DNA of 64,000 nucleotides from Winogradskyella echinorum. GTDB taxonomy: Bacteria > Bacteroidota > Bacteroidia > Flavobacteriales > Flavobacteriaceae. Positions 48,341-63,873 of the stretch are shown here, piece after piece (the first letter of the stretch is position 1; each line of letters opens with the position of its first letter). Below the pieces are notes generated by a model, which was not told where the DNA came from, ran no database searches, and saw nothing but the letters and a program-made list of their open reading frames with translations. The DNA lies in the NCBI RefSeq assembly GCF_014297365.1, contig NZ_JACOQD010000002.1, positions 868,001 to 932,000 of the forward strand. Reading direction: 5' to 3'. A program made the translations under genes and the position numbers.

Positions 48341-48423
48341 TAAACGTGAACATATATTCACCATATCCAGAACATAAAACCGGATAAGAGGAACATATGT
48401 CCTTATATAACGAGTTGTACCAC
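48341..48423. other. Left boundary of the cassette array (attI-like or short attC-like site)
   Basis: An imperfect 19-nt inverted repeat, 48350-48368 against 48382-48400, pairs at 15 of 19 positions with a 13-nt loop. It is followed by TATAACGA and then GTTGTACCAC (48414-48423), the start arm of cassette 1. Position 7 of the stem is again an A.C mismatch, as in the sites downstream. Its sequence otherwise differs from the 13 repeats, so it could be the integration site of the array or a divergent attC. Confidence 0.5.
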
Positions 48424-48425
48424 AT

Positions 48426-49163
48426 ATGACCAAACCATCTCAAATACTGATTTTAATAATGGTTTCTTTCACTCTAATTAATTGTGTGCAGAAAACCGAA
48501 CTAACTGAATTGGAATTTGAACAAAAGGTGTTCTACGAATTATTTCCTGAACTTTCGGACAAAATGTATAATGACATTCGACTAATTCCAACGCCACCAC
48601 CACCTTCACCAAATTATCTGACCGAAAAAGGGTTTGATGCTGAAAATGACTATAATAAAGCACTTGAAAATTGGGAAAAGTCAGATGATTATCGAAATAG
48701 ATTAAATGACTGGAAAAAAAGAAGAGATTCGATAATTAATGACACTACTCTCATTTACATATCTTTTCCTGATTCAATAAACCAATTTGAAAGAGAAGAT
48801 ATGCATGAGCTAATTAATCATTTCAATGACCAAAAACTTGTAGTTGACTCTAAAGACTTTGAATTGAATAGCGGATTTAAAGTGGACTTTGACAATCTAA
48901 AGTCGGATAATAAAAAATTAAGATTTAAACCATTATCTGAATTTCCAGAAAGACGTGAATTTTGGACAACTAAATATGATTTTAATTTTCGAGGTTCAAT
49001 GTCAATTACTCGAATTTTATTTGACAAAACAAAATCTTTCGGAGTGCTGAATACAGGTTTCGTAAAAGGTCGTCTGAATGGAAGTGGTTGTCGAGTTTTT
49101 ATTCGAAAAGACGAAAATGGAAATTGGGTAATTGATAAAATAAAAGGAACTTGGATTTCTTAA
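48426..49163 (+). CDS. Cassette 1: lipoprotein of unknown function, 245 aa
   Basis: Signal with lipobox TLINC at residue 20. A Pro-rich stretch IPTPPPPSPNY (about 54-64) is followed by a charged helical region with many Lys/Asp and then a beta-rich C-terminus (GSMSITRILFDKTKSFGVLN). No family recognised. The ATG is 3 bp after the start arm, and the stop is 7 bp before the end arm. Confidence 0.65.
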   Translation: MTKPSQILILIMVSFTLINCVQKTELTELEFEQKVFYELFPELSDKMYNDIRLIPTPPPPSPNYLTEKGFDAENDYNKALENWEKSDDYRNRLNDWKKRRDSIINDTTLIYISFPDSINQFEREDMHELINHFNDQKLVVDSKDFELNSGFKVDFDNLKSDNKKLRFKPLSEFPERREFWTTKYDFNFRGSMSITRILFDKTKSFGVLNTGFVKGRLNGSGCRVFIRKDENGNWVIDKIKGTWIS

Positions 49164-49170
49164 AAAATAC

Positions 49171-49311
49171 GTGGTACAACAACGTGTATAATTAATTGCT
49201 TTGGCAAGTGTTTATTTGGAAAATTCCTTCGGAATTTTCTCGCGTTCGTTTTTGTTTACTAAATTAGTTGCTTAAACACGCAACTAACCATACACAAAAC
49301 CGTTGTGCACT
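49171..49311. repeat. attC-like site 1 (cassette 1/2)
   Basis: 141 bp. End arm GTGGTACAAC (49171-49180) pairs with the start of cassette 1, not with the other end of this site. Inner stem GTGTATAATTAATTGC / GCAACTAACCATACAC: 13 of 16 pairs, three A.C mismatches. Central hairpin GAAAATTCC-TTC-GGAATTTTC. Closing arm GTTGTGCACT (49302-49311) opens cassette 2. Confidence 0.85.
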
Positions 49312-49347
49312 ATTTGAGGAAACCATTAAGCTTAATTGAAAACAGGA

Positions 49348-49788
49348 ATGAAATTAACTAATGAACAGTTTACAGAAGTTGCTTTTATTTTCGAAAAGGA
49401 GAACGGAAATACTCACTCGGATTTTGAAAAAGGAATAATTGCAGAATCGAAATTTAAAAACTTTGAATCGTCTGAATTAGAACAGATAATTGTTAACGGA
49501 CTTAACTCTGGAATTTATAAAAACGAAGATGAACGAGTTAGCGGATATTGGGCTTTATCAAAAATTTGCAATCAAAATTTGATTGCGGAATATAAGAAAT
49601 GGTTGCGTAAGGAATTAGAAAACGAAAATGGAATTGCGGTTTTTCAAATATTAATCGGACTAGACCGACTTGACGAACCAGCATTTAATAAAAATCGATC
49701 TGGACGTGGTGCGGACGAAATGGAATTGAATTTTAGAGATGCTAAACAGTATTTGATAAATAAAAACAGTGCACAACAACGTGTATAA
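49348..49788 (+). CDS. Cassette 2: hypothetical protein whose stop lies in the attC-like site
   Basis: About 146 aa from ATG 49348 (TTG at 49336 also in frame). Soluble, helical, with RVSGYWALSKICNQNLIAEY recalling a HEAT-type repeat. The last residues (SAQQRV) and the TAA stop are encoded by the end arm and first stem of site 2, so the recombination site forms the protein's C-terminus. Function unknown. Confidence 0.6.
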   Translation: MKLTNEQFTEVAFIFEKENGNTHSDFEKGIIAESKFKNFESSELEQIIVNGLNSGIYKNEDERVSGYWALSKICNQNLIAEYKKWLRKELENENGIAVFQILIGLDRLDEPAFNKNRSGRGADEMELNFRDAKQYLINKNSAQQRV

Positions 49789-49907
49789 TTAATTGCTTGG
49801 TTCACTGCCGACTTACGAAAATTCCGCTGGAATTTTCTATCTGTGATTTGTTTGCTAACTTAGTTGCTGAAACACGCAACTAACCATACACATCGCCGTT
49901 GTGCCTA
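49768..49907. repeat. attC-like site 2 (cassette 2/3)
   Basis: 140 bp. End arm AGTGCACAAC matches cassette 2's start GTTGTGCACT. Inner stem identical to site 1; central hairpin GAAAATTCC-GCT-GGAATTTTC. Closing arm GTTGTGCCTA (49898-49907) opens cassette 3. Confidence 0.85.
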
Positions 49908-49937
49908 ATTTGACAACCAAGACCTAAAGGGAAAAAT

Positions 49938-50966
49938 TTGGACAATATTTTAAACATATATGAATCTGAAAGAACCTGCGAATATCGTGGCGAAACTTAT
50001 CATGTAAGAGACAATGGTTCTATTTTTAGACTACAAAAACCTAACAAAAGAAAAAGACCTTTAGACGAAAAATGGACTTTTGGAAATCCATGTAATCAGA
50101 AAGGTTACATGAACTTTTCATCAGAAACAGTACATAGGATTGTTGCAACAGCTTTTCATGGAAAACAACCTTCTGAAAAACATATTGTTGACCATATTGA
50201 CACTAACAAAAAAAATAATAGACCTGAAAACTTAAGATGGATAACTAGATTGGAAAACATCTTACTAAATCCAATCACTTTATCTAGAATAATTTTTAAG
50301 TATGGAAGTATTGATAACTTCCTTACAAATCCCTCTAATCCAATAGATGGTGAACTTGAACAAAATTTCGATTGGATGAGAACGGTTACAAAAGAAGAAT
50401 CTGATAATACTAGAAACAACTTATTAAATTGGGCTAAAGAAGGTAAAATTCCATCTGGAGGACAATTAGGAGAATGGATATTTAATCAGGAAATTACTAA
50501 AACCCAATCTACTACTCAACCCAATTACATAATATCTAAAACACCTAATGCAGCGCAACGCATTGTTTTTCATAATGATAAACCAAACGAATTTCCATGT
50601 ACACCACAAATTATTAAAGGAAATCCATTGGCAACATACTTTGAGAATTTAAAAGTGGGAATGCCTTTTTTTAGAAATCATAATGGAGATTATGTAATAG
50701 TTAAAAGTGGATTTTCAAAAGATAGGCAATCTATTTATGTGCTGACAAGGTCTGATTATGTTTATAGAGAAATAGAAGATGGAGAATACACTGCTGTGCC
50801 AATTAATGAACTTAATGAGCAAGTCTCTATTAAGGATTTGCCACATTCGCTTTCTGAAGTAACTTATGTAGATAATTTGTTTTTGCATTCAAGGGTAGAA
50901 ACAGGTTTTCATCCGAGGGAAGAGCTAGAAGACATATTTGCTGAATATACACAAGAGTTAGAATAA
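49938..50966 (+). CDS. Cassette 3: HNH endonuclease domain protein, 342 aa
   Basis: TTG start at 49938; no in-frame ATG nearby. The HNH-like core is HRIVATAFHGKQPSEKHIVD followed by HIDTNKKNNRPENLRWIT (about residues 60-98), as in phage-type homing HNH nucleases with an NUMOD4-like region before it. The C-terminal 200 residues are unrelated to any domain I know. Could be a selfish nuclease or a defence effector. The stop lies 41 bp before the end arm. Confidence 0.7.
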   Translation: MDNILNIYESERTCEYRGETYHVRDNGSIFRLQKPNKRKRPLDEKWTFGNPCNQKGYMNFSSETVHRIVATAFHGKQPSEKHIVDHIDTNKKNNRPENLRWITRLENILLNPITLSRIIFKYGSIDNFLTNPSNPIDGELEQNFDWMRTVTKEESDNTRNNLLNWAKEGKIPSGGQLGEWIFNQEITKTQSTTQPNYIISKTPNAAQRIVFHNDKPNEFPCTPQIIKGNPLATYFENLKVGMPFFRNHNGDYVIVKSGFSKDRQSIYVLTRSDYVYREIEDGEYTAVPINELNEQVSIKDLPHSLSEVTYVDNLFLHSRVETGFHPREELEDIFAEYTQELE

Positions 50967-51007
50967 AAGTGTTAGAATTTCATTTGTGATATTTATAAAA
51001 TAAAAAC

Positions 51008-51148
51008 TAGGCACAACACCGTGTATAATTAATTGCTTGGTTCAGATCTACTTACGAAAATTCCTGAGGAATTTTCTCTGGCTCGTAAATGTTTGCTAAA
51101 TTAGTTGCTGAAACACGCAACTAACCATACACAAACACGTTACCCAAC
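51008..51148. repeat. attC-like site 3 (cassette 3/4)
   Basis: 141 bp. End arm TAGGCACAAC matches cassette 3's start GTTGTGCCTA. Central hairpin GAAAATTCC-TGA-GGAATTTTC. Closing arm GTTACCCAAC (51139-51148) opens cassette 4 and shares only GTT with the end arm of the same site. Confidence 0.85.
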
Positions 51149-51160
51149 ATTTGACCAAAA

Positions 51161-51694
51161 ATGCACGCTAAACTGAAAAACATAATTCTGACTTTAACTC
51201 TAATTGGAATTGGATTAGGGATTTTTAGTTACAGTAAAATGTACGAGTTTTTCTATCAAGAATTTTACTTTCCAGCAATATTGGCGGTTTTATTAATCAC
51301 ATTTATTTTTCTACCAAAGAATTTAAAGATAAAAAGCAAATTCTTGAATTTAACAGCACTCGGAATTGGAATTGTATTTGTGACTCTAACAACTCAACTG
51401 ACTTTGGACTATTTTGGAATGAAAAGGACTGAAAAAATATTGACTGAATATCACGAATTGGATTGCGAAAAAATAACTGACCGATTTACGACTGATTTAG
51501 TAAATAATGAACTTAAATATTTTTCGAGCGGATTAGTCGGCTCGGGAAATTTATCGGAAAACATAAAAGAATACAGAATAGAAAATTTTGACCTTGGATG
51601 TATGGTTTATGACAATCTGAATTGCTACAATAAACTCGTTAGCAATTATCTAAAAAACAAAAAGAATATTACAATTAATGAACTGTATGAATAA
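51161..51694 (+). CDS. Cassette 4: membrane protein of unknown function, 177 aa
   Basis: Three hydrophobic segments (about residues 8-26, 34-52, 65-84) then a soluble tail with three Cys (ELDCEK, LGCMVYDNLNCYN). No family recognised. Stop 7 bp before the end arm. Confidence 0.6.
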   Translation: MHAKLKNIILTLTLIGIGLGIFSYSKMYEFFYQEFYFPAILAVLLITFIFLPKNLKIKSKFLNLTALGIGIVFVTLTTQLTLDYFGMKRTEKILTEYHELDCEKITDRFTTDLVNNELKYFSSGLVGSGNLSENIKEYRIENFDLGCMVYDNLNCYNKLVSNYLKNKKNITINELYE

Positions 51695-51701
51695 TAAAAA
51701 C

Positions 51702-51839
51702 GTTGGGTAACAACGTGTATAAAAAATTGCTATTTTAGTGCTTAACCAAAGGCAGTTGCAATTTTGTTACGTCTGATTTTCCTGCGGAAAATCCTCGGTC
51801 ACAAAACCGCAACTTTCCATACACAAACCGTTGTACGCA
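51702..51839. repeat. attC-like site 4 (cassette 4/5), variant
   Basis: 138 bp. End arm GTTGGGTAAC matches cassette 4's start GTTACCCAAC. Stem GTGTATAAAAAATTGC / GCAACTTTCCATACAC keeps pairing through changes on both sides. Central hairpin is GATTTTCC-TGC-GGAAAATC, sequence-inverted relative to sites 1-3 but still paired. Closing arm GTTGTACGCA (51830-51839). Confidence 0.82.
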
Positions 51840-51855
51840 AGCTAAAAAAAGCATT

Positions 51856-52266
51856 ATGAAAAATAAAATCTTGTTACTGACTTTGACAATTCTATTTGGT
51901 TTCCAATTGAGTTTTGGACAAGAAAATGAATTAACTGAATTTAATGCTAATGATTTGATTGGAGAATGGTATCCAAAATATAATCGAGGCAAACTTGAAT
52001 TGACTTTTGAAAAGAAAGTAACAACTGAACACAAATACGGATTAAGTATTGAAATATTGAAAAACGGAGAATTTCGAAATAGATATTCAGCACCTTGTGG
52101 AAATGACACTATGCTTCGGACTCATAATTACAGTGGAAAATGGAGTCTGAATAAAGGTGAGTGGATAATAACCACAACTGAACCAATTAATCGACAAGGA
52201 ACGGTTTATAAAATAGTGGAATTAAAACTTGACAAGTTAGTTCTTGCCGAAATTAAAACGGAATAA
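51856..52266 (+). CDS. Cassette 5: secreted protein, 136 aa, lipocalin-like size
   Basis: Signal peptide MKNKILLLTLTILFGFQLSF with GQ cleavage context. The body starts NDLIGEWYPKYNRGKLELTF and alternates beta strands, as in small lipocalin-like secreted proteins of Bacteroidota; this is a resemblance of pattern only. Stop 4 bp before the end arm. Confidence 0.6.
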   Translation: MKNKILLLTLTILFGFQLSFGQENELTEFNANDLIGEWYPKYNRGKLELTFEKKVTTEHKYGLSIEILKNGEFRNRYSAPCGNDTMLRTHNYSGKWSLNKGEWIITTTEPINRQGTVYKIVELKLDKLVLAEIKTE

Positions 52267-52270
52267 AGCC

Positions 52271-52411
52271 AGCGTACAACACCGTGTATAATTAATTGCT
52301 TTGGCAAGTGCTTATTTGGAAAATTCCTTCGGAATTTTCTCGGGTTCGTATTTGTTTACTAAATTAGTTGCTTAACCACGCAACTAACCATACACATCAA
52401 CGTTACCACAC
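52271..52411. repeat. attC-like site 5 (cassette 5/6)
   Basis: 141 bp and by eye more than 90% identical to site 1. End arm AGCGTACAAC matches 9 of 10 bases of cassette 5's start GTTGTACGCA. Central hairpin GAAAATTCC-TTC-GGAATTTTC. Closing arm GTTACCACAC (52402-52411). Confidence 0.85.
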
Positions 52412-52419
52412 ATTTGAGA

Positions 52420-52947
52420 ATGACGCAAAAACAACGTAAAATATTCTACCCAGTAATTTTCTTTCTAGGAGCAATTTTAATTATTTGGGAAATTAATATT
52501 TACAGAGAAACAATTATCAATTTGATGATTCCAATCGGAATTATAATGGTTGTTGGAATAATTGCATTTATTCTCGATTTTAAGAATTATAAGAGCACTT
52601 ATGAATATAATGGAATTGGACTTTACCTCTATTCCGCAATGCATTATGTAATCGGATTTGGATTTATTGCTTGCTCAATCTTTATGTTATCGAATTATTA
52701 TTTCGCTGACCAAAATACAAGAACTGAATCGTATGAGATTATTCGGACTTCCTCACTAGCTTCTGGAGGAAAATATAGAATTGACGTCCGAACACCAACG
52801 TTTAGGATTAATTATAATGGAAAAATAAAAGAATTAGTCTTTTCATCTGAATTTTATGAAAAAAGGAACTTCTACAATAATGTGGAATTGGAAATTCGAC
52901 AAGGACTTTTTGGATTTGACATTTTAGAAAATAAAAAACTGAATTAA
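52420..52947 (+). CDS. Cassette 6: membrane protein of unknown function, 175 aa
   Basis: Start at ATG 52420 (an in-frame TTG is two codons earlier). Three to four TM helices in residues 8-95 (IFYPVIFFLGAILIIWEI; IIMVVGIIAFILDF; YVIGFGFIACSIFML), then an extracytoplasmic or cytoplasmic tail of about 75 residues. No family recognised. Confidence 0.6.
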   Translation: MTQKQRKIFYPVIFFLGAILIIWEINIYRETIINLMIPIGIIMVVGIIAFILDFKNYKSTYEYNGIGLYLYSAMHYVIGFGFIACSIFMLSNYYFADQNTRTESYEIIRTSSLASGGKYRIDVRTPTFRINYNGKIKELVFSSEFYEKRNFYNNVELEIRQGLFGFDILENKKLN

Positions 52948-52968
52948 AATAGTAACCGAATAAAAAAC

Positions 52969-53109
52969 GTGTGGTAACACCGTGTATATTTAATTGCTTC
53001 ATTCTAGCCTACTTGCGAATATTCCTTCGGAATATTCACAGGTTCGTAAAAGTTTGCTAATTTAGTTGCTTAACCACGCAACTAACCATACACAAACACG
53101 TTAGCACAC
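52969..53109. repeat. attC-like site 6 (cassette 6/7)
   Basis: 141 bp. End arm GTGTGGTAAC matches cassette 6's start GTTACCACAC. Central hairpin GAATATTCC-TTC-GGAATATTC shows a compensatory pair change relative to site 1 (A to T on one arm, T to A on the other). Closing arm GTTAGCACAC (53100-53109). Confidence 0.85.
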
Positions 53110-53125
53110 ATTTAACCCAAACAAG

Positions 53126-53605
53126 ATGTTTAAGAAATTATTTTCAAAAAAAGAACCCAAAACTTACGGACCGACAGAACCGATTTATCCTGGCGAATTG
53201 TTTGAGGTTGCTGAAATAAGTGATGATAATGGATTCTTTGGATTTTCTAATATCAATAAATCTTACGACAATTATCCTAATAAAAAATACTTCCCTTGGT
53301 GGATTCAAGTGACTTTGGAACTTGTGGACATTGACGACAGAAAAATGCCAACTGAAAGTGAAGCACAAATACTAAATGAATTGGAAGATGAAATTGAAAA
53401 ATTTATTTCGGAAAAACATAAAACTCATTTTATCGGACGTGTAACTCAAAATGGATTTCGAGATATAATTTTTTACGTTCAAGAACCAAAATTTGACCAA
53501 GAAAAAACGAATATATTTTTTGACCAAGTTCAGAAAAAAAGACGAGTAAATTTTACAATGGAAAAAGACCTTGAATGGAAAAATGTTTCTGGACTGATAA
53601 AATAA
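53126..53605 (+). CDS. Cassette 7: DUF695-like protein, 159 aa
   Basis: Soluble, no signal. WWIQVTLELVDIDDRKMPTE, a following ILNELEDEIEKFI helix, and THFIGRVTQNGFRDIIFYV resemble the DUF695 pattern (W-x-Q/V start, central E-L-x-x-x-E-D, GRVT-x-x-G-x-R). Function of that family is unknown. Stop 5 bp before the end arm. Confidence 0.55.
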   Translation: MFKKLFSKKEPKTYGPTEPIYPGELFEVAEISDDNGFFGFSNINKSYDNYPNKKYFPWWIQVTLELVDIDDRKMPTESEAQILNELEDEIEKFISEKHKTHFIGRVTQNGFRDIIFYVQEPKFDQEKTNIFFDQVQKKRRVNFTMEKDLEWKNVSGLIK

Positions 53606-53610
53606 AAAAC

Positions 53611-53748
53611 GTGTGCTAACAACGTATAAAATTAATTGCTTGGTACGAGCCTACTTACGAAAATCCTAACGGATTTTCTATTCGGTTTGTATTTACTAAA
53701 TTCGTTGCTAAACCACGCAACTAATCTTATACAAAACCGTTAGCTTTA
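53611..53748. repeat. attC-like site 7 (cassette 7/8)
   Basis: 138 bp. End arm GTGTGCTAAC matches cassette 7's start GTTAGCACAC. Stem GTATAAAATTAATTGC / GCAACTAATCTTATAC: 14 of 16 pairs, both mismatches A.C; the outer part has changed on both strands relative to site 1. Central hairpin GAAAATCC-TAAC-GGATTTTC. Closing arm GTTAGCTTTA (53739-53748). Confidence 0.85.
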
Positions 53749-53753
53749 ATTTT

Positions 53754-54344
53754 ATGAAAATCAAAACTCTATTATTATTTCTGAATTTATCTCTTCTTGC
53801 AAGTGCTCAAGAACTAGCGACTTTTTGTGAGAACGAATATGGAGGGAAAATTCTGAAAGAAACAAAATCAATTATCGATAGTTTGAAGAATAATGGAGCT
53901 CAAAATTTTATCTCACTCACTCATTATTCTGCTGGAACTGAAGCAGGATATGCTAAGATTCTTTGGAAGCAAGAGAATGAGATTAGCGGGATAGAAATTA
54001 AGATTAATAAAACCGATAATGAACTTTACGAAACGACTAAATCTTCATTAATTACGGACCAAAATTTCAAAACGATTGAATTCTTGAATGGTAAAAAGTT
54101 GAATACAAATAAAGAATTAAATGATATGTGTGAAGGTTGGATTTCACACCAACCATATTTTTTGCTTTACTACAATAATAGCGAAAATGAAGAATGTCTG
54201 AGTATTCCACAATCCAACACAGAATGTAATATTGGAGATTATCGAATAAAAATAATAGAAGAACTAAGTTTAGGTGCTTTGGAATTTCTTAAATTGAGAA
54301 TTACAGAAGAAGAGTTTCAAAAACTTGAAATTAGAAAAAACTAA
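53754..54344 (+). CDS. Cassette 8: secreted protein of unknown function, 196 aa
   Basis: Signal peptide MKIKTLLLFLNLSLLASAQ. Three Cys in the mature part (TFCENEY, DMCEGW, EECLS) plus NTECN could form disulfides. No family recognised. The TAA stop overlaps the first bases of the end arm. Confidence 0.6.
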   Translation: MKIKTLLLFLNLSLLASAQELATFCENEYGGKILKETKSIIDSLKNNGAQNFISLTHYSAGTEAGYAKILWKQENEISGIEIKINKTDNELYETTKSSLITDQNFKTIEFLNGKKLNTNKELNDMCEGWISHQPYFLLYYNNSENEECLSIPQSNTECNIGDYRIKIIEELSLGALEFLKLRITEEEFQKLEIRKN

Positions 54345-54482
54345 AGCTAACAACGGCTATAGTTCATTACGGCTGAAATTCCTAATCGGAATTTCAAGCC
54401 TTTTTGCTAAATTTATGGTTACGGCGGAATGATACTCGCGTACCATTCCGTAACGAAACCATAGCCAAAACCGTTGTGCATA
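54342..54482. repeat. attC-like site 8 (cassette 8/9), GGCTAT class
   Basis: 141 bp. End arm TAAAGCTAAC matches cassette 8's start GTTAGCTTTA. The stem is a different sequence, GGCTAT / ATAGCC plus ATTACGG / CCGTAA with one bulged base. Central hairpin GAAATTCC-TAATC-GGAATTTC is extended by GGCT / AGCC. Closing arm GTTGTGCATA (54473-54482). Confidence 0.82.
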
Positions 54483-54558
54483 AGCTGAACAAACAGAGTC
54501 AAATTAAACTTTATATCTTAAAAAAAGTCTTACAGTTACTCTAAAATACTGTTGTTTT

Positions 54559-55773
54559 ATGAAGTATAGAAATATCATATTACTGTTTTGTTTTATAATC
54601 CTGGCAAATTGTTCAAAGGATAGTGATGATAGTATTTCTCAAAGTGAACAGAGAATTGAAATTCCATTATCCACTGTAGACTATAGCTCAATGGACAACT
54701 GGGTATTTCACCCAAATAAACCTACCTTTCTCACTAATTATAATCTGGATATTGCTGTAATAAATGAAAACCTTCAGATTGAAAATATTATTCCGATTAC
54801 AAATAATTCTTATACAGATACAGGAATTGATGTGTTTTTTGTTCATCCAACAGTCTTAACCCAAAATGAGATTCCCGAATATATTGACATTCAGGACCAG
54901 CCCGAATTATTAATAACAGGTACCATAGTTGCTCAAGGTGCACTATTGTCAAAGTATGGTAGGCTATTTGCCCCTAGATATAGACAATCAACAGGTAGAA
55001 CTTATAGACCCGAGACAGATAAGGAAACACAAGCTTCTATAATTGCTGTATCCTATAGTGATATTAAAGCGGCCTTTTTAGACTATCTAAATAATCATAA
55101 TAATGGTAATAAAATCATTATTGCAGGACATTCTCAAGGGTCGTATCTTCTTGCCATGCTACTTAGAGATGTTATTGATTCTGATGAAAATTTGCGTAGC
55201 AAACTGATAACTGCGGCACTCGCTGGAATGGATTATTTATACGCTTCTGAAAATAGTTATCTAGGTGGCTGGTGGCAAAATATCCCCTTATGTACTACAA
55301 CTAATGAATGTGGATGCGTTCACAACTGGACCAGTTTTGATGAAAGCCAGTCGTTACCAGAAATAGATTATGCAATGCCCCAATTTAATCCCTATTTAAT
55401 CAATTCGGGTTTAGTATATAGAACCTTTAATGAAAGTGAAGATTGGTTCATTCAAGATTTTTCTTTTTATGATACGCAAACACAACCATTGAGATATTAT
55501 ATTGTACCAGATGCTAATTATAATCTTAGTGCAGGAAATAACTTCATTGCATTTGATAATTTATATAATGTAAGGCATAAAAGAGACGGATTAACAAAAG
55601 TTGCTTTGAGTCTAGCTCATAATCCTGAAGTTAATGATATGCGCCCTAACGATTTAGCAAATGAAGTATTTCATCCTAATTATAGCGATTGGGGCTATCA
55701 TATAAAAGATTACCATATTTATTTATGGGCGCTGATGCAACAAATTGATTTAAAAATTAATAACTGTCAATAG
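54559..55773 (+). CDS. Cassette 9: DUF3089 alpha/beta-hydrolase lipoprotein
   Basis: 404 aa. Lipobox ILANC at residue 19. DVFFVHPTVLTQNE, LFAPRYRQ and the nucleophile elbow AGHSQGSYLL (about 192-201; GxSxG) match the DUF3089 lipase-like family. Asp and His completing a triad are expected near SFDES and FHPNYSDWGYHIKDYH. It has the longest leader of the single-gene cassettes (77 bp from start arm to ATG). Confidence 0.78.
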   Translation: MKYRNIILLFCFIILANCSKDSDDSISQSEQRIEIPLSTVDYSSMDNWVFHPNKPTFLTNYNLDIAVINENLQIENIIPITNNSYTDTGIDVFFVHPTVLTQNEIPEYIDIQDQPELLITGTIVAQGALLSKYGRLFAPRYRQSTGRTYRPETDKETQASIIAVSYSDIKAAFLDYLNNHNNGNKIIIAGHSQGSYLLAMLLRDVIDSDENLRSKLITAALAGMDYLYASENSYLGGWWQNIPLCTTTNECGCVHNWTSFDESQSLPEIDYAMPQFNPYLINSGLVYRTFNESEDWFIQDFSFYDTQTQPLRYYIVPDANYNLSAGNNFIAFDNLYNVRHKRDGLTKVALSLAHNPEVNDMRPNDLANEVFHPNYSDWGYHIKDYHIYLWALMQQIDLKINNCQ

Positions 55774-55783
55774 AAATTAAGCC

Positions 55784-55921
55784 TATGCACAACACCGTGT
55801 ATAATTCATTGCTAGCTAGAGCTTACTTACGAAAGTCCTCGCGGACTTTCTATCTGTGATTTATTTGCTAATTTGGTTGCTGAAACACGCAACGAAATCA
55901 TACACAAACACGTTAGCACCA
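55784..55921. repeat. attC-like site 9 (cassette 9/10)
   Basis: 138 bp. End arm TATGCACAAC matches cassette 9's start GTTGTGCATA. Central hairpin GAAAGTCC-TCGC-GGACTTTC, another paired variant. The stem GTGTATAATTCATTGC pairs with GCAACGAAATCATACAC with one bulged A. Closing arm GTTAGCACCA (55912-55921). Confidence 0.84.
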
Positions 55922-56422: not shown

Positions 56423-56561
56423 TGGTGCTAACAATGTATAACCGCAATTACGACAGATTCGACTACGTCTGAATCCACTCGGAATTGCTAACGTCAGTGC
56501 TAAACCTAAAATTAATGCATATTGACCCGTAACTGACGGTTATACGAGACCGTTGGGCTTC
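56423..56561. repeat. attC-like site 10 (cassette 10/11), divergent class
   Basis: 139 bp. End arm TGGTGCTAAC matches cassette 10's start GTTAGCACCA. Stem GTATAACCG / CGGTTATAC is perfect, followed by TTACG / CGTAA. The interior bears no resemblance to other sites, so structure is kept while sequence is not. Closing arm GTTGGGCTTC (56552-56561). Confidence 0.8.
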
Positions 56562-56582
56562 ATTATAACCAACCATTAACTA

Positions 56583-57353: not shown

Positions 57354-57371
57354 CGAAAGTAAAACTAACCA

Positions 57372-58094
57372 ATGATAAAATTTTTTAGGAAAATTAGACA
57401 AAAACTGCTGACTGAAAACAAGTTTAGTAAATATCTGATTTATGCAATCGGAGAGATTATTTTGGTTGTCATTGGAATTTTAATTGCACTTCAAGTAAAT
57501 AATTGGAATGAAAATCGGAAAATCGTGAAAATTGAAGAAAAATACTTATCGGAATTGTCCGAAGCCATAGAGTTGGATATTCTCGATTTAAAATCCAATA
57601 TAAAAAACTCTCAAAAAACCATAGAAAGTATTGATTTATTATTAAATCATTTAGAAAAAAACTTACCCTATAACGATTCGCTAAATAAACATTTCACGAG
57701 AAGTTCATTATTTACAAATCTTATTACAAATTCTTCGGTTTATGAAAAGTTGGCATCAACCGGATTAGATATTATTTCAAGTGATAGCCTTCAGAAAAAA
57801 ATTGTTAGATATTATGATTACTCTTCACCTTACTTAAGAAAAAATGAGGAAGTAATCGTTAATCCCCATCACAATTTGAGTGTTAGACCTACAATGATTG
57901 AGAAATTCAGCTATTCTTGGCTTTTGAAACCAGCAATTCCGAATTCTTACGAAGCATTGAAATCTGATTCGGCTTATTTAAGTCTTTTAAAAACAACGAA
58001 AGAAATAATAGCATTTAAGCAAAGAATGTCAAAAGATTTACTTGAGGAAGCTTCACTTTTGCAAGCAGACATAAAAAACCACCTAAATGATTAA
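57372..58094 (+). CDS. Cassette 11, gene 2: DUF6090-like protein, 240 aa
   Basis: Paralog of the gene 18 bp upstream: MIKFFRKIRQKLLTENKFSK and the same TM helix, then a diverged helical domain. No attC-like site separates the two, so they form the only plain duplicate pair inside one cassette. Shared layout suggests they act together in the membrane. Confidence 0.82.
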   Translation: MIKFFRKIRQKLLTENKFSKYLIYAIGEIILVVIGILIALQVNNWNENRKIVKIEEKYLSELSEAIELDILDLKSNIKNSQKTIESIDLLLNHLEKNLPYNDSLNKHFTRSSLFTNLITNSSVYEKLASTGLDIISSDSLQKKIVRYYDYSSPYLRKNEEVIVNPHHNLSVRPTMIEKFSYSWLLKPAIPNSYEALKSDSAYLSLLKTTKEIIAFKQRMSKDLLEEASLLQADIKNHLND

Positions 58095-58112
58095 TTTTAA
58101 ACTAAAATAACG

Positions 58113-58250
58113 AAAGCACAACAACGGCTATAAACAATTGCTATTACAAGGCTTATCCTGAAAATTTCTGCGGAATTTTCAGCTTGTTGTGTACTTGTAA
58201 AAGTCCGTGCCAACCCACGCAATTGTTCATAGCCGAGACCGTTGGGCGTA
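58113..58250. repeat. attC-like site 11 (cassette 11/12), GGCTAT class
   Basis: 138 bp. End arm AAAGCACAAC agrees with cassette 11's start GTTGGGCTTC only after one substitution and a one-base indel. Stem GGCTATAAACAATTGC / GCAATTGTTCATAGCC pairs at 15 of 16 positions; the one mismatch is A.C. Closing arm GTTGGGCGTA (58241-58250). Confidence 0.83.
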
Positions 58251-58272
58251 ATGTAAAAATCCTCCTCCGAAT

Positions 58273-58851
58273 ATGACAGAATTACTAACACAAAATATAT
58301 TAAACCATATTACCCTTTCTAAAAAAGAGTTAGATAACTTTTGTAATTTATTCAATCAAAAAGTAGTTCAAAAAAAGCACTTTCTTATGCGTGAAGGAGA
58401 GGTTTGCAAGTTTGAAGGTTTTGTTACCAAAGGTCTTTTTAGAGTATATCATATAGACAGTAATGGCTTTGAACAAGTACTTTATTTTGCACAAGAAAAT
58501 TGGTGGATTACCGATATTGACAGTTTTACCAATGAGCAACCATCACAACTATACATACAAGCCTTAGAGGATAGTGAAGTATTATTAATTTCAAAAAAAG
58601 ACAAAGAGTTTGCTTATATCAATATCCCTAAAATAGAAAAACTCTTTAGAATCATGACTCAAAAAACGCATATCGCTTTACAACAAAGAATGATTGACAA
58701 TTTGAGTAAAACAGCCGACCAGCGTTATTTGGACTTTATTGAAAAATACCCCAATCTTTTTCAACGATTAACCAACCTGCAGATTGCCGCTTATTTGGGC
58801 ATAAGCCATGAATTTTTGAGTAAAATTAGACGAAAAATAGCTAGTAAATAA
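58273..58851 (+). CDS. Cassette 12, gene 1: Crp/Fnr-family regulator
   Basis: 192 aa. cNMP-binding-like beta barrel (FLMREGEVCKFEGFVTKGLF, about 35-55) and a C-terminal helix-turn-helix LTNLQIAAYLGISHEFLSKI (about 165-185). No Fe-S cysteine cluster. The next gene has a 16-bp palindrome and its own promoter directly upstream, so this protein is the natural candidate to regulate it. Confidence 0.88.
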   Translation: MTELLTQNILNHITLSKKELDNFCNLFNQKVVQKKHFLMREGEVCKFEGFVTKGLFRVYHIDSNGFEQVLYFAQENWWITDIDSFTNEQPSQLYIQALEDSEVLLISKKDKEFAYINIPKIEKLFRIMTQKTHIALQQRMIDNLSKTADQRYLDFIEKYPNLFQRLTNLQIAAYLGISHEFLSKIRRKIASK

Positions 58852-58868
58852 TCGTTGCCAAATCATTT

Positions 58869-58884
58869 ATTGAACTTGTTCAAT
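58869..58884. promoter_or_regulatory. Palindrome, candidate Crp-family operator
   Basis: ATTGAAC-TT-GTTCAAT: perfect 7-bp arms with a 2-bp spacer, 17 bp after the regulator stop and 2 bp before the -33 box of the next gene. Position immediately upstream of -33 suits activation. Confidence 0.5.
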
Positions 58885-58886
58885 GT

Positions 58887-58914
58887 TTTGAAGTGGGTAA
58901 TCATTGCATCTTTG
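58887..58914 (+). promoter_or_regulatory. Promoter of the MBL-fold gene
   Basis: TTTG (58887-58890), 16 bp, CATCTTTG (58907-58914; 7 of 8 to TANNTTTG). The message would start about 20 bp before the ATG at 58942. Confidence 0.5.
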
Positions 58915-58941
58915 TACCATCATAATAAACAGGACAAAAAA

Positions 58942-59832
58942 ATGAAATCGATTATTTCAACAACATTATTTACAATTTTAATTTTATTCAAAATGAATGC
59001 ACAAGAACAAAGTTTTAAAACAATAGAAACAAGCAAATTTAAACTTCAAATTTACAACGCATCCGAAAATAGTTTTGGTGTGGCATCTTTAATTATCTCA
59101 GGAAAAAACGATGCCGTATTAATAGATGCACAATTTACATTGGCAGAAGCTGAACAAGTCGCTCAAGAAATTAAAAACTCAGGTAAAACCTTAACAACTA
59201 TTTATGTGTCTCACGGTGATCCTGATTTCTATTTCGGATTAGAGGTATTCAAAAAATATTTCCCTGAGGTTACAGCTTATGCAACGCCTGCAACAGTAGA
59301 ACATATAAAAGCAACAGCCCAAAAGAAATTGGAAGTTTGGGGCGAAAGATTAGGTGATAAAATTACATCCAATGTTATTTTACCACAAGTTCTTAAAGAA
59401 AATTTTATTGCCTTAGAAGGTGAGAAACTAGAAATCATTGGATTAGAAGATTTCCCAAAAAGAACTTTTGTCTGGATTCCATCAATTAAAACAGCTTTAG
59501 GCGGCATTAATGTATTTGGCACAACATTTAATGTATGGATGGCAGATGCACAAACAACAGAAGCACGCCAAAACTGGTTATCAATCTTAAATAGCATTAG
59601 TGATTTAAAACCTGAAATAGTAATTCCGGCACACGCAAATACAAATTCAGATTTCACTATTGATGCTGTAAACCATACTAAAAATTACATTCAATTTTAT
59701 GAAGAAGCTTTAAAAAGTAACACAACTTCTGAAGCGTTAATAGCAACGATAAAATCAAAATATCCGAATTTAACTTTTGAAACAGCTTTAGTGCTAGGAG
59801 CAAAAGTGAATACAGGAGAAATGAAATGGTAA
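58942..59832 (+). CDS. Cassette 12, gene 2: MBL-fold metallohydrolase, exported
   Basis: 296 aa from ATG 58942 (the frame from TTG 58855 runs through the promoter and is not used). Signal MKSIISTTLFTILILFKMNA. The first metal motif is SHGDPDFYFG, in place of HxHxDH: the second His is Asp and the last is Phe, a variant known in some MBL groups. VIPAHAN near 240 supplies another ligand. Substrate unknown. Confidence 0.8.
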   Translation: MKSIISTTLFTILILFKMNAQEQSFKTIETSKFKLQIYNASENSFGVASLIISGKNDAVLIDAQFTLAEAEQVAQEIKNSGKTLTTIYVSHGDPDFYFGLEVFKKYFPEVTAYATPATVEHIKATAQKKLEVWGERLGDKITSNVILPQVLKENFIALEGEKLEIIGLEDFPKRTFVWIPSIKTALGGINVFGTTFNVWMADAQTTEARQNWLSILNSISDLKPEIVIPAHANTNSDFTIDAVNHTKNYIQFYEEALKSNTTSEALIATIKSKYPNLTFETALVLGAKVNTGEMKW

Positions 59833-60290
59833 GATTTATAATAATTATCAACTTGACATTGCTTTTAGTAGTGTCAAGTTGTTCGTTTAAACAGGAAGCA
59901 ATGACAAATTTAGAAATCATAAAAAGTACATATGAAGGTAAAACTTCAGAAGAAAACGGTAAAAACTTGGCCAAACATGTAGCCGAAAATATTAGTTGGA
60001 CAGAAGCTAAAGGTTTTCCATATGCTGGAACTTATATTGGTTTAGAAAGTGTTACCAAAAATGTTTTTCAGCGCTTAGGTAGCGAGTGGATTGATTATAA
60101 ATTTACACCCGAAGATTATATTGCAAATGAAGACAAAGTAGTTGCTTATGGCACCTATTCGGGTACATATAAAAAAACGAACAAGTATTTTGAAGCAAGA
60201 GTGGCCCATATATGGAAACTGAACAATGGCAAGATTATCAGTTTTGAGCAGTTTGTGGATAGTAAATCGGTTGACGAAGCAATACGTTAA
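59826..60290 (+). CDS. Cassette 12, gene 3: SnoaL/NTF2-like lipoprotein
   Basis: 154 aa. ATG overlaps the last codons of the MBL gene. Lipobox VVSSC near residue 18, then an NTF2-like fold (EISWTEAKGFPYAGTYIGLE-like segment; VVAYGTYSGTYKKTNKYFEA; HIWKLNNGKIISFEQFVDSK). Such proteins bind or isomerise small molecules. It forms an operon with the MBL gene under the internal promoter. Confidence 0.8.
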   Translation: MVRFIIIINLTLLLVVSSCSFKQEAMTNLEIIKSTYEGKTSEENGKNLAKHVAENISWTEAKGFPYAGTYIGLESVTKNVFQRLGSEWIDYKFTPEDYIANEDKVVAYGTYSGTYKKTNKYFEARVAHIWKLNNGKIISFEQFVDSKSVDEAIR

Positions 60291-60295
60291 AACAC

Positions 60296-60433
60296 TACGC
60301 CCAACACTGTATATAATTTATTGCTAGTCCTAGCCTACTTACGAAAATCCTCACAGACTTTCTATCTGTGATTTATTTGCTAACTTTAGTGTTTAAACCA
60401 CGCAACTAATCATATACAAATACGTTGGTAGCA
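60296..60433. repeat. attC-like site 12 (cassette 12/13)
   Basis: 138 bp. End arm TACGCCCAAC matches cassette 12's start GTTGGGCGTA. Stem TGTATATAATTTATTGC / GCAACTAATCATATACA pairs at 14 of 17. The central hairpin GAAAATCC / AGACTTTC is partly eroded. Closing arm GTTGGTAGC(A) at 60424-60433 has one base fewer before the fixed A. Confidence 0.8.
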
Positions 60434-60461
60434 TTTAAATTTATAGTGATAATTTAAAAGA

Positions 60462-61313
60462 ATGAATCGTGAAATTATAGATATAAATGATTACACAATT
60501 TTGTTGGAAGAGGCTTCTACTAACAATAATCTAATAGATTCCTGTTATTTTGATGAGCCTGTAATAGCTGTTGCTTTTTATGGTGCAGGCGATGTTGGTC
60601 TTAATGTAAAATTTGATGGAAAAGCTAGAACATTCCATCATACTAAAGGTATGGTACTATCATTTTATGCAGATGAGAAAGTAGAGTTTGAACATCATGT
60701 TTCCAAACTAAAATCGTTGCAATGTTTAGTCATAACAACAACCATTAAAAACTTAGACAAATTGCCTAATGGTGAAGGTCAATTTTTGGAACAATTTTTA
60801 TTTCAATTAATTCACCCAAAAGATCATTACATTGAAGGTCCTGTATTTAACATGAGTCCAGAAATGTTTCAATTAGTTGAACAGTTCTTTAGCAATACTT
60901 TCGAAGGTGAGATTAAAATGATGTTTTATAAAAGCCATATTACAGCTTTACTTTCTCATTATTTCGGCCAATTGGCAAAACAACAAAAAACCAAACTCAA
61001 TACTTCGCAAATAGAAAAAATTAATCTCGCTCAAGAAATTTTATTATCTGATTTAGAAAACCCACCATCCTTAACTGAATTGGCACATAGAATTGGCACC
61101 AACACTAATAAATTAAAAATAGAATTTAAAGCACAGTTTGGAGTTCCTGTTTTTAAATACTTACAAAACGAACGTTTAAAAAAAGCCTACAGGTTAATAA
61201 AAAACGAACAAAAGACAATTCAAGAAGCCGCTTGGGCTGTGGGTTACGATAGTTTAGGCTCTTTCTCTAATGCATTTGAAAAAAAGTTTGGCTACAGACC
61301 TAGCCAGGTGTAA
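60462..61313 (+). CDS. Cassette 13, gene 1: AraC-family regulator
   Basis: 283 aa. The C-terminal 100 residues hold two HTH motifs (SLTELAHRIGTNTNKLKIEF; IQEAAWAVGYDSLGSFSNAF followed by EKKFGYRPSQV), the AraC signature. The N-terminal part is a ligand or cupin-like domain without clear family. It is followed by direct repeats and a promoter that read into the next three genes. Confidence 0.9.
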   Translation: MNREIIDINDYTILLEEASTNNNLIDSCYFDEPVIAVAFYGAGDVGLNVKFDGKARTFHHTKGMVLSFYADEKVEFEHHVSKLKSLQCLVITTTIKNLDKLPNGEGQFLEQFLFQLIHPKDHYIEGPVFNMSPEMFQLVEQFFSNTFEGEIKMMFYKSHITALLSHYFGQLAKQQKTKLNTSQIEKINLAQEILLSDLENPPSLTELAHRIGTNTNKLKIEFKAQFGVPVFKYLQNERLKKAYRLIKNEQKTIQEAAWAVGYDSLGSFSNAFEKKFGYRPSQV

Positions 61314-61314
61314 A

Positions 61315-61353
61315 ATTCTTTTCGAATAAATCATAATTCTTTCTGAATAAGTC
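61315..61353 (+). promoter_or_regulatory. Two 18-bp direct repeats, candidate AraC-type operator
   Basis: ATTCTTTTCGAATAAATC (61315-61332) and ATTCTTTCTGAATAAGTC (61336-61353) agree at 15 of 18 bases. They are spaced exactly 21 bp start to start, two helical turns, as for AraC half-sites. Confidence 0.6.
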
Positions 61354-61371
61354 GCTGGAAGACAGCTCATA

Positions 61372-61379
61372 TAAATTTG
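61372..61379 (+). promoter_or_regulatory. -7 element TAAATTTG of the AraC-controlled operon
   Basis: Perfect TANNTTTG, 18 bp after the second direct repeat and 25 bp before the ATG at 61405. No -33 box is obvious, consistent with need for an activator. Confidence 0.5.
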
Positions 61380-61404
61380 TATCATAATTTAAAAACTAAA
61401 GATT

Positions 61405-61800
61405 ATGATCCGTAAAAATTTATTCAGCGTTATATGTGGTATACTCGTTTGGACCTTAGGAGTTAGCTTTTACCTCTTATCGTTTTATGTGCCCATCTTA
61501 GAAAATTCCGAACTACAATCTAACATTGTATTAGCTTTAGGTATAATACCTAGCGCATGTTTAGGAACATACTTATTCTATACAAAAAGTCAATTAAAAC
61601 CTTCAAAATTAGGACTAACATTTGTAATTGTAGCTACACTACTAGATGTAATAATTACTGTTCCTGTATTTATTATTCCAACTGGTGGAAGCTATTCAGA
61701 ATTTTTCGGAGATCCTATGTTCTATACCATAATTGTTGAGTTTTACTTCATTGTTCTCTATTACGGAAATCATTTGACCAGTAAAAAAATTAAAGCATGA
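61405..61800 (+). CDS. Cassette 13, gene 2: four-TM membrane protein, 131 aa
   Basis: Hydrophobic segments at about residues 7-27, 39-57, 70-92 and 105-122. No family assigned with confidence. Its stop overlaps the next start by 4 bp (ATGA), so the two are coupled. Confidence 0.65.
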   Translation: MIRKNLFSVICGILVWTLGVSFYLLSFYVPILENSELQSNIVLALGIIPSACLGTYLFYTKSQLKPSKLGLTFVIVATLLDVIITVPVFIIPTGGSYSEFFGDPMFYTIIVEFYFIVLYYGNHLTSKKIKA

Positions 61801-62276
61801 AAACTATAATTTTTTTAATAACGGTTTTACTAAATGCGCTTTCTACAGGTTTTTTCTTCGCATGGTCTGTTTCAGTCGTATTGGGTACTAAAAAGGTAGG
61901 TGATTATACGTACTTGGAAAGCATGCAGCATATTAATAAAGAAATCTTAAACCCAGCATTCTTCATTGTGTTCTTTGGAAGTTTAATGGCATTGGTAACA
62001 ACTACTTATTTACAATTTAACAACAAAACTGAATTTGTGTTAGTGTTGGCATCAACTATTATATATCTAGTTGGCACATTTGGAGTTACAGCCTTTGGAA
62101 ATGTCCCCTTAAACAATGAGCTAGAAGCATTAAATATCAACAACCTTAACCTAATAGATCTAATGGCATTTAGAACTTATTATGAAAGTGCTTGGAATCA
62201 TTTTCATGATATAAGAACAATTTCGAGCATGGTTTCATTTATACTATTACTTATATCACTATTTATTAAAAGATAA
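61797..62276 (+). CDS. Cassette 13, gene 3: DUF1772 (anthrone-oxygenase-like) membrane protein
   Basis: 159 aa, four TM helices. LLNALSTGFFFAWSVSV at the N-terminus, then VPLNNELEALN and WNHFHDIRTISSMVSFILLL are the DUF1772 hallmarks (the N-x-x-L and W-x-x-x-N/H-x-x-R positions). The family includes fungal anthrone oxygenases; bacterial roles are unclear. Confidence 0.78.
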   Translation: MKTIIFLITVLLNALSTGFFFAWSVSVVLGTKKVGDYTYLESMQHINKEILNPAFFIVFFGSLMALVTTTYLQFNNKTEFVLVLASTIIYLVGTFGVTAFGNVPLNNELEALNINNLNLIDLMAFRTYYESAWNHFHDIRTISSMVSFILLLISLFIKR

Positions 62277-62293
62277 TTTTAAAACAATTAATT

Positions 62294-63130
62294 ATGAAAA
62301 CAAATATTTTAGTTATCGGAGGAACCGGAAAAACGGGTCGCCGAGTCGTTGAGCAATTACAAAACAAAGGAATTGAGCCGAGAATTGGTTCAAGAAACGC
62401 ATCACCAAGCTTTGATTGGGATGATAAAGATACTTGGGTAAATGCTTTAAATGGCATTGAAAGAATGTATGTTACCTATTATCCAGATCTGGCCGTTCCT
62501 GGAGCTAAAGAAGCCATACAAAGCCTAACCTATTTAGCAAAGGAACTAGGAGTTAAAAAAATGGTTTTACTTTCTGGCAAAGGGGAAACCGAAGCAGAAG
62601 CTTGCGAAAATATTGTTATGAATTCTGGTATAGATTATACAATAGTTAGAGCTTCTTGGTTTAATCAAAATTGGAGCGAAAGTTTCTTTTTAGAACCTAT
62701 TTTAACCGGAGAAGTAGCACTGCCAATGTCTAATGTTTTAATTCCATTTGTAGATGCAAATGATATTGCAGAAGTCGCTGCAACCGTGTTACTAGATGAT
62801 TCTTATAATGGCGAAATTATTGAAGTAACAGGTCCAGAATTAATCACTTTTAAAGATATTGTAAATATCATTTCAAAAACCAGTAATAGAAGCTTGAATT
62901 TTTACGACATCACTTTAGAGCAGTACATAGATGGTATGAAACAAATGCAAATACCTAATGATGTTGTGTGGTTAATTGAGTATTTATTTACTCATGTTTT
63001 AACTAATCCAAAAAATCAATTGGTAGTTAATGATATTGAACGCGTGTTAGGCAGAAAAGCCAAACCATTTATAGAGTATGCTAAAGAAACAGCAAAAACT
63101 GGTATCTGGAGTCAAGTTGAAGTTCAATAA
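62294..63130 (+). CDS. Cassette 13, gene 4: NmrA-like NAD(P)-binding protein
   Basis: 278 aa, Rossmann start VIGGTGKTGRRVVEQLQNKG; FVDANDIAEVAATVLLDD and a C-terminal helical cap follow. Resembles NmrA/quinone-oxidoreductase-type SDR enzymes. With DUF1772 and the AraC regulator it suggests an inducible redox or detoxification response. Confidence 0.82.
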   Translation: MKTNILVIGGTGKTGRRVVEQLQNKGIEPRIGSRNASPSFDWDDKDTWVNALNGIERMYVTYYPDLAVPGAKEAIQSLTYLAKELGVKKMVLLSGKGETEAEACENIVMNSGIDYTIVRASWFNQNWSESFFLEPILTGEVALPMSNVLIPFVDANDIAEVAATVLLDDSYNGEIIEVTGPELITFKDIVNIISKTSNRSLNFYDITLEQYIDGMKQMQIPNDVVWLIEYLFTHVLTNPKNQLVVNDIERVLGRKAKPFIEYAKETAKTGIWSQVEVQ

Positions 63131-63157
63131 CTCGATACAACAAAGCGAATTGGTAAT

Positions 63158-63200
63158 GGCGATTTGAAACTCACTTTAAATCGCTATTATTTTTTATTTT
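63158..63200 (+). terminator. Terminator after the NmrA-like gene
   Basis: GGCGATTT and AAATCGCT pair around an 11-nt loop and are followed by a T-rich tract. Confidence 0.7.
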
Positions 63201-63283
63201 GTAATTTACTTTGCGAAAGGTATAGTGTAAAAGCTTGCTACTTTTTAAATGTAAAACCGTTGGTAAACATTAATAAGAGGCTC

Positions 63284-63721
63284 ATGAAAAAAAGAAGAAT
63301 TATTTCGTCAATACTTTTAATTATTGGATTTGCTTTAAGTGTTGCATTTATAACAAAAATTGAATTTCCTCAAGGCTTCGAAGCATATTTTAAAAGAGAA
63401 TACTATAATCAATTTGGCCCCTTAGCCATAAGTGTTGAGCTTTTAATTGCAAGTTATTACCTTTTTATAGGTCATAAAAAAACAAATTTCACTTTAGCTC
63501 TTTTCGGATTCACTGCTTTACTAGATCCTTTTTTTAATGCCATAGGGCTCTTTAACAGTATAATGCCATTATACGGAACCATAGTTTTATCTATCTGTGC
63601 TCTAATATGTATAGGCTTAGCATTTGCAAACACATTTAAATTAAAAAGGTTGTCTCGCATTGCAGCAATATTAAGTGTAATCCTTGGTGTTATCATTGAA
63701 CTATTTTTCAATTACATTTAG
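63284..63721 (+). CDS. Cassette 13, gene 5: four-TM membrane protein, 145 aa
   Basis: From ATG 63284 (the frame is open upstream across the terminator). Hydrophobic segments at about residues 7-24, 44-62, 70-88 and 95-113, plus one near the end. No family recognised. Behind the terminator it may be a separate unit; GTTGGTAAAC at 63259 resembles a cassette start arm, so it might once have been its own cassette. Confidence 0.6.
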   Translation: MKKRRIISSILLIIGFALSVAFITKIEFPQGFEAYFKREYYNQFGPLAISVELLIASYYLFIGHKKTNFTLALFGFTALLDPFFNAIGLFNSIMPLYGTIVLSICALICIGLAFANTFKLKRLSRIAAILSVILGVIIELFFNYI

Positions 63722-63722
63722 T

Positions 63723-63865
63723 AAACGTTACTCTACGCCTTATAAGATTAATTGCTAAGTCACTGCCAATATATACACACTATTTCAGAAAATTCTATCT
63801 AATATTTATTTGCTAAATTAGGTGCTAAAACACGCCAATAACAGCACACACAAATGTAGAACATT
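63723..63865. repeat. Decayed attC-like site 13
   Basis: 143 bp, collinear with sites 2, 3, 9 and 12: ATTAATTGCTAAG, CACTGCC, TCTATCT, TTTATTTGCTAAATTA, GTGCTAAAACACGC are recognisable. The central hairpin and most stem pairs are lost. Its end arm AAACGTTACTCTAC still resembles the reverse complement of cassette 13's start (AAACGCTACCAAC). Confidence 0.65.
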
Positions 63866-63873
63866 GAAATCTG

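Follow-up and report, generated by a model that had tools for sequence, protein, structure and literature searches.

The 64,000-nucleotide (nt) stretch of the Winogradskyella echinorum genome analysed here, referred to below as the window, carries at 48414-63863 an array of co-oriented gene cassettes joined by related sites, an observation first made in a first-pass annotation of the letters alone and confirmed here. We propose, with a probability of roughly 0.8, that this is an integron-type cassette array and that a Xer-like tyrosine recombinase, which lacks the insertion typical of the integron integrase IntI, likely moves such cassettes through the folded bottom strand of their sites. Judged by its anatomy, the system appears to work like an integron. 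Judged by the defining enzyme, it does not belong to the integron family, as the IntI insertion was looked for in the recombinase sequences and was not found. The main novelty lies in an array-adjoining recombinase without the IntI-specific insertion, which is visible only in relatives of this strain. Such arrays likely constitute a widespread and overlooked kind of gene-shuffling system.

The repeats lie where the first-pass annotation had placed them. A lone half-site GTT at 48414 forms the left end of the array and is followed by twelve good sites, each 138-141 nt from arm to arm, and by a degenerate thirteenth site that scores 46 bits as compared with 76-134 bits for the others. Each site consists of a left arm with a terminal AAC, one stem half of the GTGTATAATTAATTGC type, a middle portion with an inner hairpin, a second stem half, and a right arm that opens with GTT. 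Neither an Rfam scan at gathering thresholds nor a tRNA scan of the window gave a match. Thirteen units, mostly single small genes, had been proposed. Twelve of these hold as cassettes, eleven of them with matching ends, while the remaining unit (60424-63729) contains five genes without matching ends and its status as a cassette is doubtful. Ten of the twelve cassettes do contain a single gene; cassettes 11 and 12 hold two and three. The features are listed here, with sites in top-strand coordinates and open reading frames abbreviated as ORF.

48354..48423, + strand: attI-like left end, ending in TATATAACGA before the first half-site GTT (48414); similar sequence follows the integrase stop in relatives
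48415..49302, + strand: cassette 1, protein without a Pfam match (ORF 48426-49163); ends complementary over 10 bp
49171..49311, + strand: attC-like site 1
49303..49898, + strand: cassette 2 (ORF 49336-49788); ends 10 bp
49768..49907, + strand: attC-like site 2
49899..51139, + strand: cassette 3, HNH endonuclease PF13392 (ORF 49938-50966); ends 10 bp
51008..51148, + strand: attC-like site 3
51140..51830, + strand: cassette 4 (ORF 51161-51694); ends 10 bp
51702..51839, + strand: attC-like site 4
51831..52402, + strand: cassette 5, lipocalin-like PF13648 (ORF 51856-52266); ends 9 bp
52271..52411, + strand: attC-like site 5
52403..53100, + strand: cassette 6 (ORF 52414-52947); ends 10 bp
52969..53109, + strand: attC-like site 6
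53101..53739, + strand: cassette 7, DUF695 (ORF 53126-53605); ends 10 bp
53611..53748, + strand: attC-like site 7
53740..54473, + strand: cassette 8 (ORF 53754-54344); ends 10 bp
54342..54482, + strand: attC-like site 8
54474..55912, + strand: cassette 9, DUF3089 protein (ORF 54559-55773); ends 10 bp
55784..55921, + strand: attC-like site 9
55913..56552, + strand: cassette 10 (ORF to 56418); ends 10 bp
56423..56561, + strand: attC-like site 10
56553..58241, + strand: cassette 11, two DUF6090 paralogues; ends match over 4 bp only
58113..58250, + strand: attC-like site 11
58242..60424, + strand: cassette 12, cyclic nucleotide monophosphate (cNMP)-binding regulator, metallo-hydrolase and SnoaL-like protein; ends 10 bp
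60296..60433, + strand: attC-like site 12
60425..63729, + strand: segment with AraC-type regulator, DUF5367, anthrone-oxygenase-like, NmrA-like and a fifth protein; no matching ends seen
63729..63863, + strand: degenerate site 13 (46 bits, E 8e-9; 4.8e-8 in the genome-wide covariance search)

A cassette of a known integron has an end that pairs with its start, the two halves being derived from a single site of the circular cassette; in the array they are kept apart by the gene. The window cassettes show this relation. In 11 of the 12 cassettes, start and end pair over 10 bp (9 bp in one case), whereas the two halves of one site are complementary over 3-7 bp only. When cassette starts were paired at random with cassette ends, the observed sum was reached in none of 200,000 permutations, and chained end complementarity ran to 10 links in the window versus at most 3 in 100 dinucleotide shuffles, which places the repeats beyond chance. 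Comparison of the chains between both strands is symmetrical and was therefore rejected as a control; the dinucleotide shuffles serve instead. We then counted ends across the strain's own genome, using 57 sites (12 in the window and 45 elsewhere) and leaving out five weak or partial matches and the few-site stretches L220, L222 and L224-L229. With the window included, 36 of 42 consecutive cassettes had matching ends, 30 of them over exactly 10 bp and none over more, as against 0 of 46 for matching within the same site and 3 of 442 among other pairs. Complementarity within cassettes and not within sites is what would be expected if cassettes had travelled as circles cut at G/TT, and it supports the integron-like reading made in the first-pass annotation. 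Cassette 11 may be a fusion of two cassettes through loss of the intervening site, since its ends do not match and its two DUF6090 genes are similar (83% identical over 156 nt; window 56553-58120).

The sites had also been said to fold. Under RNA parameters, all 13 window sites fold better as bottom strand than as top strand. For a broader structure analysis, the 150 best of 180 sites were aligned, the alignment being fitted to a covariance model built from the 12 window sites; with DNA parameters the bottom strand was the more stable one in 138 of 149 (one of the 150 was left out by length). The 16-pair stem, termed the L stem, is paired on the bottom strand in 98.6% of 2400 cells, and both sides change in 10 of its 16 pairs. 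As a control, one side of the stem was slid by 1-3 columns, which left 27-45% paired. Two L-stem pairs are nearly always G-T (149/150 and 134/150) and a third is often so (57/150). G-T and A-C cells number 354 versus 4 in the L stem, 69 versus 95 in the inner hairpin and 37 versus 37 in the R arms. Because G-T pairs become A-C mismatches on the top strand, the L stem appears to be built to fold on the bottom strand.

AAC and GTT are invariant in all 150 aligned sites. The sites nevertheless depart from the integron core RYYYAAC/GTTRRRY, with the full GTTRRRY present in 2 of the 12 window sites. Extrahelical bases set strand choice in known integrons, according to two papers (PMC3053210, PMC4792948). 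No conserved bulged base was found in the aligned sites, in which the sole recurrent stem insertion column is empty in 113 of 150 and filled in 37. The spacers between arm and stem are unequal, at 6 nt (5 in ten sites) versus 3 nt, and we infer that the conserved G-T wobbles together with these spacers mark the right strand. The second stem half (window 49263-49290, with equivalents in other sites) can also pair with its upstream neighbour to give a local hairpin, TTAGTTGC...GCAACTAA. On either strand, such a hairpin would be a rival to the long fold, and it may act as a switch.

Running the covariance model, a check that the first-pass annotation had put forward, identified at least 78 sites in the strain's own genome (E up to 1e-3; 150 of 3135 candidates scored) and from 3 to at least 82 in each of 24 congeners searched. 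Within the Flavobacteriaceae, at least one site (E up to 1e-6) was found in 216 of 249 genomes, representing 203 of 235 genera; other families of the same order yielded 1-3 sites in 4 of 15 genomes. In congeners, draft contigs frequently stop at an array or close to one (L244, L249, L253, L255 and many integrase loci), as expected of repeats, so that cassette content is undercounted in drafts.

To examine the cassettes shared with relatives, the window array was searched against the genus, and the eleven highest-ranking matches from genomes other than the strain's own (L177-L187) were taken as the shared-cassette set, leaving out weaker whole-cassette matches (G011, G050, G053, G060 and others) and attC-only matches. 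Each covers a single cassette, whole or in part, in some cases together with the site before it. Breakpoints had been predicted to fall at GTT, and an end lies within 3 nt of it in 8 of the 11 loci, on the left in L178, L179, L180, L183, L184 and L186 and on the right in L181 and L187. In L177, L181 and L187 the left end coincides with the AAC of the site before, as repetition of the site would lead one to expect, and L182 and L185 are less sharp, with ends 11-25 nt off GTT. Cassette 12 is homologous in three species (L178-L180) from the GTT at 58241 (+/-1) to 10 nt past the R'' core, and a homologue of cassette 1 in another species (L184) starts at GTT and stops 4 nt beyond the R'' core. The ends are 11 and 22 nt off for the cassette 4 homologue in G006 and 25 and 23 nt off for that of cassette 10 in G004. 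Between GTT and the end of its gene, cassette 6 shares 98% identity with its counterpart in G022 and 94% with that in G012, above the identity of secA in the same genomes (85% and 81%). These relatives of cassette 6 (L183, L186) depart from the window version in their 3' part, as about 360 nt separate the end of the gene from the following site.

The secA locus was looked up in 14 relatives. Both flanking genes are present with no site in G004, G060 and G017; G063 and G022 have secA and the right flank with no site between them; and G057 has the left flank with no site in the 16 kb covered. Ten sites were found at the locus in G005, where cassette 2 is the only one in common with the window, two in G011, and one each near a contig end in G002, G003 and G048, while the stretches of G077, G006 and G012 end before any site. 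In relatives, the syntenic locus is either empty (three loci with both flanking genes) or occupied by another array, in keeping with the integron-like reading. Directly after degenerate site 13 of the window lies an M23 peptidase gene (window 63871 on; L005:374-1204). This gene was not found at the secA locus of the 14 relatives, several of whose stretches end with the contig, and it may therefore be a last cassette without its site.

The recombinase that adjoins the arrays in relatives is a Xer-like tyrosine recombinase. Using an alignment of 20 array-associated recombinases as query, we obtained a match better than 1e-90 in 59 of 68 genomes of the genus (own genome included), the next group of matches starting at 2e-61; among the 59, the protein is short or partial in G010, G041 and G065. 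Across the Flavobacteriaceae it was found at 1e-80 or better in 155 of 249 genomes and 147 of 235 genera. A phylum search at 1e-80 (88/296) was rejected as a count of systems because it mixes full-length matches with matches to the catalytic part only. Many array recombinases bear the NCBI label 'site-specific tyrosine recombinase/integron integrase', which is the generic name of the XerA-type model NF040815; its curated cut-off of 220 was passed by 3 of 5 integrases. None of the five passed the integron integrase model TIGR02249 (172-216 bits versus a cut-off of 265), nor was that cut-off passed in any of the 68 genus genomes. The spacing between two catalytic motifs is 65-66 residues in 17 of 25 array integrases (the other 8 are without the motif as written) and 107 residues in 7 of 7 IntI proteins, and residues 190-247 of VchIntIA face only 13 residues of the query. 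These comparisons show that the array recombinase lacks the IntI insertion of about 42 residues.

The array recombinase instead carries an N-terminal extension of about 100 residues, whose modelled structure is possibly of the HARP/XPB type by fold. Foldseek with the N-terminal model returned no match under E 0.09, and a PDB profile search with the N-terminal alignment found nothing related. A tree, from which seven rows were dropped and to which five IntI rows were added, set apart XerC/D (100/99) and IntI (100/100). It did not settle how IntI, the flavobacterial enzymes and archaeal XerA branch relative to one another, and we therefore make no claim of convergence.

In relatives the recombinase is linked to the arrays. 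From the genus matches, 40 stretches around recombinases were taken, in 38 of which the recombinase ORF was located, and the covariance model found 148 sites in the 40. Aligned sites from 29 of these loci number 118, of which 115 lie on the strand of the integrase and downstream of it; L095 accounts for the other three. This locus, from G004, has a 355-residue recombinase of the same superfamily whose sites lie at its opposite side, on the other strand, and is possibly another subtype of the layout. We also collected 33 loci by protein likeness from named Bacteroidota and others. Ten of these have sites, and all 38 site matches lie downstream (one place was counted on both strands). The ten come from Winogradskyella, Seonamhaeicola, Algibacter, Zunongwangia and another Flavobacteriaceae and, as weaker cases, from Flavobacterium, Aquiflexum, Rufibacter and two metagenome-assembled genomes (MAGs).

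The junction between recombinase gene and array resembles an attI site. The first cassette starts 20-90 nt past the recombinase stop in 24 of 38 loci, all 24 being among the 30 in which 1.5 kb or more follows that codon, as compared with 18 of 380 when the downstream arms were taken from another locus. In 14 locus pairs with a similar attI side (at least 75%), mean identity is 0.88 before GTT and 0.39 after it; in L068, L072 and L073 the 60 nt before GTT show 97-98% identity, which falls to 32-39% beyond it. The motif ATATAAC stands directly before GTT in only 11 of 24 attI-like sites, which argues for more than one attI type. The order of recombinase, attI and cassettes on one strand is also that of Treponema integrons (PMC3607928).

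Taken as an integron-type system, these features suggest a mechanism in which the recombinase would bind the folded bottom strand of the approximately 140-nt site and recombine a single strand at G/TT with either attI or a second site, the cassettes moving as circles, as in integrons. We infer from the sequences the recombinase as the enzyme, the bottom strand as its substrate, the exact cut at G/TT and the circular intermediate alike. What might take over the role of the IntI insertion is a matter for a guess, namely the wobble-marked stem together with the N-terminal domain. Our expectation falls somewhat short of even that this domain, HARP/XPB-like in its modelled fold, would read the hairpin in place of the insertion. 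We are similarly tentative about a broader proposal, that the Flavobacteriaceae possess a second, separately built integron, assembled from a Xer-like recombinase and a fork-reading domain of the HARP/XPB type, with the strand of its hairpins chosen by conserved G-T wobbles and not by extrahelical bases. Such an integron would either have been invented independently or preserve a stage that preceded the acquisition of the insertion by IntI.

Several alternative explanations were weighed against this reading. The strongest, which we consider an even bet, is that cassettes moved in the past but the integrase was lost in this lineage, so that the arrays are fossils with no movement now. No matching integrase was found in the strain's own genome, which is 99.99% complete, and searches of the window, its flanks and the strain's other arrays by tblastn with 38 integrases returned no integrase remnants (best E 0.065; none at 0.01). 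A LLLSGK-like stretch before two of the strain's arrays was considered as a remnant and rejected, being more likely part of the attI-like sequence. The left end of the window array (...TATATAACGA/GTT) and those of two other arrays in the genome resemble the attI-like sequence while having no integrase, and both degenerate site 13 and the open cassette 11 fit decay. Against this, end complementarity is intact in 36 of the 42 cassettes, congeners have kept their integrases, and one shared cassette is 98% identical. Without the arrival of an integrase from elsewhere, the arrays of this strain would not move.

It is considerably less probable, and in our judgment unlikely, that these are ordinary attC sites serving a canonical IntI, the arrays being integrase-free attC clusters (CALINs) and the Xer-like recombinase a bystander. 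The arrays share the GTT/AAC core, the hairpin and the cassette layout of attC, no integrase lies beside the window array, and canonical IntI passes its cut-off in 84 of 296 phylum genomes sampled. However, of the 85 phylum genomes with a canonical IntI match, one belongs to this class and none to this order or family, and no genus genome exceeds the cut-off, whereas the Xer-like enzyme is present in most family genomes sampled (155/249) and adjoins arrays with an attI-like junction. One canonical IntI (L168, 476 bits), from a Calditrichia MAG, served as a reference. More improbable still are Xer/dif-type modules, in which the housekeeping XerC/XerD would act on short double-stranded sites inside the repeats, as in pdif modules. 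The only tyrosine recombinases (PF00589) found in the strain's genome are two Xer-like proteins, as this explanation would have it, but the conserved unit is an imperfect palindrome of about 140 nt with a covarying stem, and a dedicated recombinase adjoins the arrays in relatives. Dispersed palindromic repeats (repetitive extragenic palindromic (REP)-like elements or terminators) lying between genes by chance are scarcely credible, since such elements, although likewise palindromic, intergenic and present in many copies, would neither pair each unit's start with its own end nor put breakpoints at GTT.

The integron-type reading bears on how tyrosine recombinases came to use folded single-stranded DNA. 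A literature search, which excluded preprints and most subscription papers, found no description of this system in Flavobacteriaceae. The published view ties the use of folded single-stranded substrates to an extra domain and extrahelical bases (PMC4792948, PMC8138268, PMC3053210). Flavobacterial systems without the extra domain, and in which extrahelical bases are not conserved, provide a test of that question. Moreover, such a system, with its different kind of integrase, was found in 147 of the 235 genera sampled from a major environmental family and would give access to a large pool of mobile genes.

Comparison with known systems places the flavobacterial arrays close to integrons with a canonical IntI (TIGR02249; 2A3V). 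The two have in common folded attC-bounded cassettes, a G/TT boundary, R''/R' arms closed within the cassette, an attI adjoining the integrase gene (here in relatives), co-oriented small genes and a better-folding bottom strand. Unlike the canonical kind, the flavobacterial recombinase is without the insertion of about 42 residues and has an N-terminal extension, its sites have arms matching over 10 bp and GTTRRRY in 2 of 12 window cases, and the stem has conserved G-T wobbles in place of a conserved extrahelical base. Treponema chromosomal integrons likewise differ from the flavobacterial system, as they encode an intI of the canonical kind. The window array, being without an integrase, resembles a CALIN, but relatives carry a non-IntI integrase next to such arrays. 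Xer proteins (XerA/XerC type; NF040815, PDB 5HXY, 4A8E) resolve chromosome dimers at short double-stranded sites and are not known to carry the N-terminal extension found on the flavobacterial recombinase. Integration of CTXphi by XerCD, as set out in PMC4792948, involves a hairpin without extrahelical bases and enzymes without the I2 insertion. The flavobacterial system shares both of these features with it, and differs in having a cassette array and a dedicated integrase.

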